Assembly (NCBI RefSeq): GCF_000183545.2
Contig: NZ_JH976535.1
Span: forward strand, 138,840-202,839
From: Thermaerobacter subterraneus DSM 13965
GTDB taxonomy: Bacteria; Bacillota; Sulfobacillia; Thermaerobacterales; Thermaerobacteraceae
Direction: 5' to 3'
DNA length: 64,000 bases
This document shows, piece after piece, positions 41,176 to 43,632 of the stretch (position 1 is its first letter; each line of letters opens with the position of its first letter). Under the pieces are notes generated by a model. The model had not been told where the DNA came from, did not search any database, and saw only the letters and a program-made list of their open reading frames with translations. Both the position numbers and the translations under genes were made by a program.

Positions 41176-41571
41176 TCAGGAGATGTGGTACATCCCCAGG
41201 GTGGAGAGCTTGCGGTTCTCCTTGATGAAAAGGTCGAAGGTGTTGATGTCGAACAGGTTGCAGAGGGCGACCAAATAAAAAAGCTGCTTGCCAAGTTCCT
41301 CCTCGAGGACCTCGCGGCAGCTTTCGCAAAGCGTCCCGTCGACATGGTCGTCCATATAGCTCTTCAAGTCCCGGAGGGTGCTCTGGGCGGGAATCTTGGG
41401 CCGCTGCGCGTGGATGCTGATGCAGCCACAACTGGTTACGGCCTTGGCCACGGCGCGGTGTACGCGGGCGTTGGCTTCCTGAAACTTCGACAGGACGTCC
41501 AACACGCTGCGGTGACGTACCAGGCAGTCGGCCACCGCGTGTTGAAACTCATCCACCAACAGGTCCTTCAA
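41176..41571 (-). CDS. Small conserved Cys-motif protein, function unknown
   Basis: 131 residues from TTG 41571, preceded by AGAGGGGTG. This start is set by the promoter at 41615-41644, because a GTG at 41625 would lie upstream of the transcript. The sequence starts LKDLLVDEFQHAVADCLVRH and has SCGCISI and LCESCREV, possibly four metal-binding Cys. The helical C-terminus (EEELGKQLFYLVALCNLFDI) recalls MazG-like pyrophosphohydrolases. Similar clostridial proteins carry the label DUF1573 as I remember it, unverified. No function is assigned. Confidence 0.7.
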   Translation of the reverse strand: MKDLLVDEFQHAVADCLVRHRSVLDVLSKFQEANARVHRAVAKAVTSCGCISIHAQRPKIPAQSTLRDLKSYMDDHVDGTLCESCREVLEEELGKQLFYLVALCNLFDINTFDLFIKENRKLSTLGMYHIS

Positions 41572-41614
41572 CCGCGTCACCCCTCTTGCACGGGCATCCC
41601 CACGGCCTGGCGCT

Positions 41615-41644
41615 ATTATAGGCACCCCGGGAAAGGCGCGTCAA
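41615..41644 (-). promoter_or_regulatory. Promoter of the small Cys-motif gene
   Basis: On the minus strand TTGACG (41639-41644) and TATAAT (41615-41620) are 18 bp apart. The -35 lies only about 12 bp from the left end of the insertion sequence, so the insertion left this promoter intact. Confidence 0.8.
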
Positions 41645-41656
41645 TCAAGCGCAATC

Positions 41657-42947
41657 ACTCAGCCAAAATGTAACCGAAGGGGTCCCGGATCACTCACGGA
41701 GAAATCTTACCGAAGGGACGTGCTGTGCCAATGTCGCTCGCCAGCCGCCGGGAGTATCTCGCCACCATGCGAGAACGGTATTGGGCGGCCCGAACCCGCC
41801 GGGAACGCACCGAGATCCTGAACGAAGTCCAGCAAGTCTGTGGGTATCACCGCAAGTACGCGATCCGGGTCCTCCGACAGGCTACGCCGCCGGCCCCGGC
41901 CAAGCGCCGTCGCAAGCGGGCCCTGCGCTACCTGGAGGCCTTGCCGGTCATCGCGCGGGTCTGGGAAGCGCTGGACTACCCTTGCGCCGAACGGCTTCAC
42001 CCGGTCCTCTTGCCCATGGCCGAGCACCTGGCCGCCCATGGGGAAGTGGTCCTCACCGGGGCCGTTCGCGACGCCCTTCGGCAGATCAGCCGCGCCACCC
42101 TGGCCCGCCGCCTCGCTGCGATGCCCTCGCCCAAGCCGCGCCGTCGGCTTCCTCGTCCGCGACCGGGGCTGCTGCAAAGCCAGATCCCCATGGCCACCTA
42201 CGACTGGGACGAAGCCCGGCCCGGGGCCTTGGAGGTCGATCTGGTCGAACATAACGGCGGCTCGACCGCCGGCCAGTACGCGTACACCCTCAGCATGGTC
42301 GACATCGTGACGGGCTGGAGCCGCCGCCGCGCCTTGCTCGGCCGAAGCCAGCGCGCCGTCCACGAAGCCATCCAGGACCTGATCGCCCAATGGCCCTATC
42401 CCGTCTGGGGCCTGCACACCGACAACGGCGCGGAGTTCGTCAACCATCACCTGCACCGGTACGCCGAAGCGCACCACCTGACGTTCACCCGCAGCCGCCC
42501 CTATCGCAAGAACGACAACGCCCACGTCGAGCAGCGCAACCGCCAGCTGGTCCGGGAGATCGTCGGCTATGCCCGCTACGACCGCCCCGAGCAGGTCGAA
42601 CAGCTCAACCGGCTCTACGCCCGCTTGGACCTCTACGCCAACCTGTTCCTCCCAACCCGGAAGCTCAAGAACAAGGTCCGGGAGGGCGCCCGGGTGCGCA
42701 AATCCTACGACGCCGCCCGGCCCCCGCTGGATCGCATCCTCGAGCGCGACGTGCTCTCGCCCGAGGAACGGGCGCGCTGGCTGGCCCTTCGCCAGTCTCT
42801 CAACCCCCTAAAGCTCCATCGGGAGCTGGACGACCTGATCGCTGGCCTCCAGCAACCCCCGGAAACGACCATGTCCGCCGATTGAGGTGTTCGGTAACAT
42901 CCTTACGTGAGTGATCAGGACCCGTTGGGTAACATTTTTAGCTGAGT
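41657..42947 (+). mobile_element. Insertion sequence with bipartite inverted repeats
   Basis: About 1.29 kb with one DD35E transposase. The left end (41657-41714) and the right end (42890-42947, reverse complement) form a long imperfect inverted repeat of about 58 bp. Each end holds two related sub-repeats, of form ACTCAGC...GTAACCGAA and CACTCACG...TTACCGAA. No clear target duplication adjoins these borders. The 6-mer CGTCAA occurs on both sides (41639-41644, 42953-42958) but 5-12 bp outside, so the borders may be off by a few bases. It is inserted between two promoters. The family is not firmly assigned; IS481-like is one option. Confidence 0.85.
41731..42885 (+). CDS. DD35E transposase (integrase catalytic core)
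   Basis: 384 residues from ATG 41731 (an in-frame GTG is at 41725). The N-terminal helix-turn-helix region begins MSLASRREYLATMRERYW and GYHRKYAIRVLR. The rve-type catalytic core has Asp in LEVDLVEHNGG (about 169), Asp in LHTDNGAEF (about 231) and Glu in AHVEQRN (about 267), with exactly 35 residues between the last two. No frameshift or stop interrupts it, so the element may be active. Confidence 0.92.
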   Translation: MSLASRREYLATMRERYWAARTRRERTEILNEVQQVCGYHRKYAIRVLRQATPPAPAKRRRKRALRYLEALPVIARVWEALDYPCAERLHPVLLPMAEHLAAHGEVVLTGAVRDALRQISRATLARRLAAMPSPKPRRRLPRPRPGLLQSQIPMATYDWDEARPGALEVDLVEHNGGSTAGQYAYTLSMVDIVTGWSRRRALLGRSQRAVHEAIQDLIAQWPYPVWGLHTDNGAEFVNHHLHRYAEAHHLTFTRSRPYRKNDNAHVEQRNRQLVREIVGYARYDRPEQVEQLNRLYARLDLYANLFLPTRKLKNKVREGARVRKSYDAARPPLDRILERDVLSPEERARWLALRQSLNPLKLHRELDDLIAGLQQPPETTMSAD

Positions 42948-43006
42948 TGACACGTCAAGGCCTGGGCTCCCGGGGCGCCGGCGGGCAGCCAGTCCCAAAG
43001 AGTCCG

Positions 43007-43072
43007 TTGACGGGGCTTAATCAGGGTGATAAATTCAATCTTTTGCCGCAGGGGGTCTCCCTGGTGTACACT
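43007..43072 (+). promoter_or_regulatory. Two tandem promoters before carD
   Basis: P1: TTGACG (43007-43012), 17 bp, TAAATT (43030-43035), with TG upstream of the -10. P2: TTGCCG (43043-43048), 18 bp, TACACT (43067-43072). Both lie 60-125 bp after the insertion sequence and serve the plus-strand carD gene. Confidence 0.6.
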
Positions 43073-43131: not shown

Positions 43132-43632
43132 GTGTTCCAGGTGGGGGATCGCGTCGTCTATCCCATGCACGGCGCGGGCGTCATCGAGGCCATCGAGGAA
43201 CGGGAGGTGCTGGGGGAACGGCACCGGTACTACATCCTGCGGCTGCCCGTGGGGGACATGCGGCTTATGATCCCCACGGCCAGCGCCCCGCAGAGCGGCC
43301 TGCGGCCCGTGATCCCGGCGGACCAGGTGCCGGCGGTGCTGGAGGCCCTGTGTGAACCGGTTCCACCCCTGGACTCCAACTGGAACCACCGCTACCGGGA
43401 GCATGCCGACAAGCTGCGCAGCGGCGACATCCTGGAGGTGGCCGTGGTCGTCCGCAACCTCAGCGCCCGCCAGAAGGCCCGCGGCCTGTCCGGGGGTGAG
43501 CGGCGGCTGCTGGATCAGGCGCGCCAGATCCTGGTCAGCGAGCTGGCCCTGGCCGGCGGCATGGGGCGGGACGAGGCCGACGCCCTGGTGGAACGGCACC
43601 TCGGGGCGGCCGAGCCGGCGGGCGGGGCGTAA
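43132..43632 (+). CDS. CarD/CdnL-family RNA polymerase-binding regulator
   Basis: Stabilises the open complex by binding the RNA polymerase beta subunit. 166 residues from GTG 43132 after GGGAGGTGAGG. The N-terminal RNAP-interaction domain is FQVGDRVVYPMHGAGVIEAI, with YILRLPVGDMRLMIP; the helical C-terminal domain includes WNHRYREHADKLRSGD. An Ala/Gly tail ends it. CarD before the yacL-ispD genes is common in Clostridia. Confidence 0.93.
   Translation: MFQVGDRVVYPMHGAGVIEAIEEREVLGERHRYYILRLPVGDMRLMIPTASAPQSGLRPVIPADQVPAVLEALCEPVPPLDSNWNHRYREHADKLRSGDILEVAVVVRNLSARQKARGLSGGERRLLDQARQILVSELALAGGMGRDEADALVERHLGAAEPAGGA

Follow-up and report, generated by a model that had tools for sequence, protein, structure and literature searches.

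An insertion sequence (IS) of 1305 bp resides in the stretch of DNA analyzed here, 64,000 nucleotides of the genome of Thermaerobacter subterraneus DSM 13965 (contig NZ_JH976535.1, positions 138,840 to 202,839), referred to below as the window. The IS carries an intact transposase frame, is flanked by a perfect target duplication, and has its left end next to a promoter from which the neighbouring gene is read away from the element. The same arrangement recurs among its close relatives. The original prediction, made from the sequence of the window alone, had described the element and the repeated blocks in its ends, and had missed the adjoining promoter, which is the more important feature of the locus.

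The element and its target site

The genome of T. subterraneus (G000) hosts six near-full-length copies of the IS, including that in the window, which measure 1305–1315 bp in the five with both borders. Three are 99.8–99.9% alike, and three form a second subgroup, 94–96% from the first. Read in register, the copies all start CGCAATCACTCA and end TGAGTTGACACG, and these common borders, together with an exact empty site in a sister genome (G002), mark 41650–42954 as the full element. Perfect 5-bp duplications flank five of the six copies: TCAAG (window copy), TCGCC, CGCGA, GACCT and GAGGA. The sole copy without a duplication (L003; G000 C1, 863088–864392) is perhaps the recombination product of two copies. 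At the G002 empty site the two flanks are joined without the element, their matches overlap by exactly 5 bp, and the sequence runs straight through a single TCAAG. The presence of an insertion sequence is thus borne out by the five further copies and by the empty site in the sister species. The borders first proposed (41657–42947) fell 7 bp short on each side, and the statement that a clear target duplication was lacking was wrong.

Read outwards, the left flank presents a sigma70-type promoter, TTGACG-N18-TATAAT, which starts directly after the duplication (Table 1). The same promoter is held by the G002 empty site, and hence predates the insertion. Both hexamers are kept in genomes G001 and G003 while the spacer diverges, the pattern expected of a working promoter. 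A dif or Xer site, considered as target by analogy with ISAjo2, was rejected, since the flank motif is a promoter, as shown by the empty site. The open frame downstream of the promoter had no Pfam or NCBIfam match at E 0.001.

Another promoter-like pair (TTGACG, 17 bp, TAAATT; 43007–43035), located beyond the right end, faces a CarD-like gene (43132–43632), so that the target lay between divergent promoter-like sites.

Table 1. Features of the insertion sequence and of its target in the window
Feature	Position	Strand	Remarks and evidence
Complete insertion sequence	41650..42954	+	Starts CGCAATCACTCA, ends TGAGTTGACACG; borders common to copies, exact G002 empty site
Left copy of target duplication, TCAAG, 5 bp	41645..41649	.	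Copies in register and empty site
Right copy of target duplication, TCAAG, 5 bp	42955..42959	.	Copies in register and empty site
-35 hexamer TTGACG of target promoter	41639..41644	-	Directly after duplication; sequence; in empty site; conserved in G001, G003
-10 hexamer TATAAT of target promoter	41615..41620	-	18-bp spacer; sequence; flank comparison
Open frame downstream of target promoter	41176..41580	-	Read away from the IS; true start probably near 41570-41580
Transposase, 386 amino acids	41725..42885	+	Integrase (rve) core, DD35E (D172, D233, E269); reading frame, Pfam, alignment, structure model
Left end, outer sub-repeat L1	41656..41678	+	CACTCAGCCAAAATGTAACCGAA; repeat comparison, relatives
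Left end, inner sub-repeat L2	41691..41714	+	CACTCACGGAGAAATCTTACCGAA; repeat comparison, relatives
Right end, inner sub-repeat R2	42889..42912	-	Repeat comparison, relatives
Right end, outer sub-repeat R1	42924..42947	-	Repeat comparison, relatives
Outward TTGACA in right end	42947..42952	+	Possible -35 of circle-junction promoter
CAAAAT in left end (TAAAAT or TATAAT in relatives)	41664..41669	+	Possible -10 of circle-junction promoter

Promoters at the left end of related elements

Eighty-seven distinct left flanks were collected by the end motifs and the duplication; the promoter was not used for selection. Forty-nine sites belong to clade A, which includes the window element and its close relatives, 38 to clade B, made by distant relatives. 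Three left borders are probably miscalled (L156, L191, L108), and were kept in the counts. The offset scan covered 47 of the 49 clade-A sites; L106, with a flank of 50 bp, and L195, with runs of N, were left out. The mean promoter score showed a single sharp peak at offset 5, the position adjoining the duplication (9.45, versus an average of -6.14 elsewhere). Offset 5 was the best of 60 offsets in 38 of the 47 sites, and in 20 of the 21 with a 5-bp duplication. When 30 offsets were compared the numbers were 40/47 and 20/21; 200 shuffles reached at most 6 and 3. In right flanks offset 5 was the best in 0/21, and this result, as the shuffles, led to the rejection of placement by chance. Scores above 6 at offset 5 were found in 37 of 48 clade-A sites (L195 left out), against a background of 0.035% of window positions and 0.15% of more distal positions in these flanks.

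The -35 hexamer matches at least 3 of 6 bases in 40/49 sites, and all six in 14. The best -10 hexamer, searched with spacers of 16–19 bp, matches at least 4 bases in 42/49 sites, with spacers of 17 (22 sites), 18 (18 sites) or 16 bp (2 sites). The first T of TTGAC lies next to the duplication in 21 of the 22 sites featuring one. Since the distance to the -35 is constant and the spacer to the -10 varies, the insertion site is fixed on the -35, not on the -10. The left end points towards the promoter, neither hexamer is disrupted, and transcription of the gene proceeds away from the element.

Insertion could be random, or merely intergenic, with only the elements upstream of promoters surviving selection. 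Such insertions are probably harmless, and survivors would be enriched at these places, but selection alone would not be expected to fix either the distance to one bp or the orientation. The right flanks, and the insertions found in two species at the same base of one promoter (see below), also argue against survival alone, which is held to be extremely improbable.

Downstream genes and distribution of the trait

In 9 of 49 clade-A sites (L020, L202, L152, L200, L115, L159, L161, L167, L165), a tRNA gene transcribed outwards starts at 45–71 bp from the left end. In clade B, tRNA genes were found near the left end of L109 (64 bp) and L080 (84 bp). The nearest tRNA gene in the right flanks scanned, with an approximate border for elements lacking an identified right end, is 505 bp off (L191). 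Many of the downstream frames listed may be spurious; eight were picked by hand for Pfam searches. These eight correspond to ribosomal protein S10 (L180), the RNase P protein (L124), an EF-Tu/EF-G-type GTPase (L105), a class II tRNA synthetase (L155), a lactate/malate dehydrogenase (L133), an S1-domain protein (L018), an ArsR-type regulator (L169) and a periplasmic binding protein (L203). Promoters of tRNA and translation-type genes are, in general, strong.

The RNase P gene is preceded by the element in both G000 and G001, inserted next to one promoter at an identical base. In G000 both copies of the duplication read CGCGA; in G001, where the element spans the end of the contig record, both read CGCGG. 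Because the matching pairs differ between the species, the data are consistent with two independent insertions; an inherited copy may instead have undergone gene conversion, but this alone would not be expected to change both duplication copies. G002, which has no full copy, features the RNase P promoter without the element. Its flanks are set apart by about 80 bp of non-matching sequence, and this is therefore not an exact empty site.

A tree was built from 77 of the 87 transposases (open stretches of more than 250 residues). One branch (support 99/84) sets apart 49 rows: 40 with an adjacent promoter (offset 4–6), 8 without, and one (L106) unscored; the short flank of L106 reads TTGACA-N18-TATACT. 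The 28 rows on the other side include 2 promoter-adjacent elements, 9 with a promoter at 15–17, and 17 with neither. In clade B, the best promoter lies at offsets 15–17 in 9 of 38 sites (binomial tail 8e-5; the interval was chosen after looking at the data), and at exactly 17 in 2 of the 8 sites with a 5-bp duplication. The excess at 15–17 bp (e.g. L050, L038, L051, L091) corresponds to the distance known for TnGBS. The signal is weak and is taken as a lead.

Organization of the ends

The ends of the IS are composite. At the right end, 24-nt copies starting at 42889 and 42924 are 79% alike and 35 bp apart; at the left end, 16-nt copies at 41666 and 41702, contained in longer blocks, are 88% alike and 36 bp apart. 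The two ends are inverted repeats of each other, with arms of 30 and 21 nt, 80% and 86% complementary, and the 58-bp left/right match has an E of 4.4e-5 versus the genome. Two related blocks per end, as originally proposed, were therefore confirmed. Six of the six G000 copies keep both sub-repeats at both ends, and full copies excluding one of the two, which would have spoken against the proposal, did not occur. Paired blocks recur, at nearly equal spacing, in relatives about 50–60% identical in protein. In clade A, two or more blocks were counted by a strict pattern in 35/49 left and 13/24 right ends; most misses, by eye, differ by about one base (e.g. ATAACC, GTCACC). The inner left block is seemingly absent, by eye, in L107, L115 and L108.

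The paired blocks are probably transposase-binding sites, two in each end. This interpretation remains the preferred one, because the blocks recur in relatives, and because ISAjo2/IS1202 and IS21 share the layout. The suggestion of two binding sites, already made in the original prediction, thus stands; the published examples also mean that the layout is not new, and paired-site ends would be ordinary by themselves. The transposase would bind the two tandem sites in each end and pair the ends.

In 18 of 21 elements, the right end features TTGACA facing outwards. Circles formed in copy-out/paste-in transposition of IS911 and IS2 feature promoters at the junction, and abutted ends of the present elements resemble them. 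When the ends are joined with one extra base, a promoter with a 17-bp spacer is formed (mean score 11.9); scores with other numbers of extra bases were 10.9 (none), 11.4 (2), 10.0 (3), 2.5 (4) and 3.2 (5). The organization of the ends suggests that transposition may proceed via a circle, whose junction promoter would consist of the right-end TTGACA, 17 bp and the TAAAAT-like hexamer of the left end.

Inverted repeats may also act as targets, as known for IS911, IS2 and IS30, and the element could be thought to insert beside a surrogate of its own right end, TTGAC at the target being nothing but that resemblance. The right end reads CGTGTCAACTCA, and the target reads TGTCAA before the duplication. 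The orientation is the wrong one, since an abutting right end would read TTGACA towards the left end, and TGTCAA at the target is inverted. Resemblance to the right end, moreover, leaves unexplained the -10 hexamer at 17–18 bp, which persists in five sites without TGTCAA (L180, L188, L127, L018 and L197 keep 5–6 of 6 bases at the -10 with only 3–4 of 6 at the -35). On these grounds right-end surrogates were rejected as targets, and this explanation is very improbable.

Proposed guidance by RNA polymerase

We consider it quite probable that the element and its close relatives insert with a 5-bp stagger directly upstream of the -35 of sigma70-type promoters, guided by promoter-bound RNA polymerase. 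Guidance by the polymerase is suggested by the fixed distance to the -35, the flexible spacer, the single orientation, and the presence of tRNA and translation genes among the targets. A fixed distance to the -35 combined with a variable distance to the -10 is expected if sigma, and not a rigid DNA motif, is read. The transposase would meet the promoter-bound polymerase at its upstream edge, and the holoenzyme, through sigma region 4 or the alpha C-terminal domain, may recruit or position it.

The main rival explanation is that the transposase itself reads promoter-shaped DNA, namely TTGAC followed, at a distance of some three helical turns, by a TATAAT-like sequence, with no host protein involved. 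TTGAC adjoining the duplication is the strongest signal in the sites, and the same hexamer marks most right ends. The -10, however, lies about 29–35 bp from the junction at a varying distance (17- or 18-bp spacer), the site being fixed on the -35, and a rigid reader is unlikely to accept both arrangements. Promoters of tRNA, S10 and RNase P genes among the targets also point to occupancy. Direct reading by the transposase is regarded as unlikely, though to be taken seriously.

Several points weigh against the mode of insertion proposed here. At offset 5, eleven of the 48 clade-A sites scored do not exceed 6, including 2 of the 22 with a duplication, and L022 has a perfect duplication and no promoter at this offset. 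Promoters were predicted by consensus, with a weight matrix of consensus values entered by hand. The limits of clade A were drawn after the site table had been seen, although the tree agrees with them, and 12 changes of the promoter label are required along the tree (shuffled mean 25.2). As to the circle, TTGACA is missing from 3 of the 21 right ends, and the junction promoter works with spacers of 0–3 bp and fails at 5 bp, the length of the duplication. Borders, duplication, paired ends, position and orientation of the promoter, and its existence before the insertion are read from the sequences compared; the involvement of RNA polymerase is what we infer from them.

Transposase and family assignment

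The 386-amino acid transposase frame is intact and occupies 1161 of the 1305 bp of the element. The catalytic residues D172, D233 and E269, the last two separated by 35 residues, are invariant in 27 aligned sequences, in agreement with the intact DD35E transposase originally reported. The rve domain is the sole Pfam match at E ≤ 0.001, and its 33.1 bits are barely above the cut-off of 32.6. The predicted structure (mean predicted local distance difference test, pLDDT, 83; predicted template modeling score, pTM, 0.73) features two N-terminal helix groups, an RNase H core and two further strands; residues 141–159 and 259–273, the latter including E269, have pLDDT below 50. In the model, the core matches retroviral integrases. 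IstA of IS21 (8q4d, 8b4h) aligned with model residues 6–345 with Z of about 13, but with root mean square deviations of 9–13, and retroviral integrases match the predicted core at least as well as IstA does.

The relatives, of which the best 80 of 144 were kept, include a transposase of Hydrogenibacillus (96%). Relatives of about 50–60% identity reside in Moorella, Alicyclobacillus, Paenibacillus, Tuberibacillus, uncultured Bacillota and one Trueperaceae genome, and relatives of 30–45% are spread far more widely. The transposase is matched at E 1e-60 in 18 of 398 genomes of the phylum sample; one further search added no genome to these, another, of 296 genomes, matched the starting genome alone, and no match was found at E 1e-5 in the phage collection. 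Several distant relatives feature CG ends and 5-bp duplications (e.g. L033, L038, L047, L050, L053, L056, L057). Many plasmid relatives among the matches listed are named ISNCY family, at least three ISBj12.

By its sequence, the element is an autonomous IS of the retroviral-integrase-type (rve, DD35E) group, the nearest named relative being ISBj12 (ISNCY). The ISBj12 transposase is 36.8% identical to that of the window over 372 amino acids (E 1e-68), denoting homology along the catalytic core. ISBj12-like elements of Rhizobiales plasmids also have ends beginning with CG and a CTC motif at the same place, but the ISBj12 transposase is larger (503 amino acids), with a longer C-terminal part. 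Flanks of 16 plasmid copies were viewed by eye, and several copies lie between inverted copies of another motif. Among plasmid relatives L205, L210, L209, L212, L214, L215 and L217, several have a motif such as GCGACAATCAGGATGAGA, inverted, on one or both sides, and IS21-type istA/istB or recombinase genes are annotated near some of the copies with GCGACAATCAGGATGAGA-like motifs. ISBj12-type copies may target another protein-bound site.

Membership in IS481 and IS1202 was rejected. The match to IS481 reaches 55.1 bits, versus an NCBIfam equivalog cut-off of 224 bits. The outermost bases, fixed as CG/CG by the empty site, are not the 5'-TGT and ACA-3' of ISAjo2-type elements, and, by blastp alone, no match below E 1 links the transposase to that of ISAjo2 (TnpAjo2), membership in IS1202 calling for relatedness to it at 25–56% identity. 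An IS1202-family trait, the internal second copy of the inner terminal inverted repeat near each end, is present. As to IS21, the size of the transposase frame leaves no room for the istB helper gene. The transposase is not of the Mutator type of TnGBS, ISLre2 and ISKra4, rve being its only Pfam match at the above cut-off on E.

Changes were noticed in some copies. The transposase frames of two of the six G000 copies (L005, L006) appear broken, the protein match being split into two pieces; L006 also has an extra 10 bp. In G003 (contig 2, 4736–4762 and 56421–56447), two 27-bp sequences match the outer right end in isolation, the rest of the element being absent, and may be solo ends or a miniature derivative. 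In one Kiritimatiellae genome (G849), four of copies L061–L063, L095, L238, L247 and L251 each have a single in-frame TGA, as does one G037 copy; L115 is listed with the G849 copies. These TGA codons may denote decay of a shared ancestor or recoding.

Comparison with known systems

Elements of the IS1202 family and ISAjo2 group have a second internal transposase site near each end, a 5-bp duplication and a fixed orientation, and ISAjo2 inserts next to the XerC site of dif, at a distance of 5 bp (PMC10132070). The window element shares these features, the internal transposase site being a putative one, and also the distance of 5 bp from a protein-binding site. It differs in the target, which is a promoter and not dif, and in the transposase, without similarity by blastp. 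IstA of IS21 binds, as a tetramer, two terminal repeats per end (PMC11208146). Two repeats per end are shared with IS21, IstA being among the less clear fold matches; the istB gene is not shared.

Fixed distances upstream of promoters have been described for other elements. TnGBS and related elements insert 15–17 bp upstream of the -35 of sigmaA promoters, or 13–17 bp when the ISKra4 group is included, and interaction with RNA polymerase is proposed for TnGBS (PMC3942029). TnGBS, ISLre2 and ISKra4 (p-MULT 3 and 4) share with the present elements a fixed distance from sigmaA promoters, but have transposases of the Mutator superfamily, and a junction 13–17 bp from the -35, in contrast to the 5 bp found in clade A. 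The right end faces the promoter in p-MULT 3, either end in the ISKra4 group, (PMC3942029), and the left end in the window clade. The yeast retrotransposon Ty3 provides a further case of insertion upstream of tRNA genes guided by the transcription machinery (cited in PMC3942029). Retrotransposons and RNA polymerase III are involved in the yeast cases, and the strategy, not kinship, is what the bacterial elements share with them. Ty1 is likewise guided upstream of tRNA genes by the transcription machinery.

Promoter targeting by this integrase-type clade was not found described in the open-licence literature searched, which is weak evidence of absence. The strategy is a known one, carried out by a different enzyme class with a different geometry, and the integrase-type clade looks like a separate, tighter case. 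If so, two unrelated transposase superfamilies would have evolved the same safe-haven strategy, leaving the -35 and -10 of the host intact. The IS would provide a compact, apparently single-protein bacterial model of integration guided by the transcription machinery, and its insertions could serve, besides, to locate promoters in bacteria that are poorly studied. We are inclined to believe, with less assurance than for the guidance of the window element and its close relatives, that an integrase-type IS clade, separate from the Mutator-type elements, docks on the RNA polymerase holoenzyme at active promoters, including those of tRNA and translation genes, and that related groups seek different sites occupied by proteins, or insert one more turn upstream. 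Such a clade would be a bacterial counterpart of Ty1 and Ty3.
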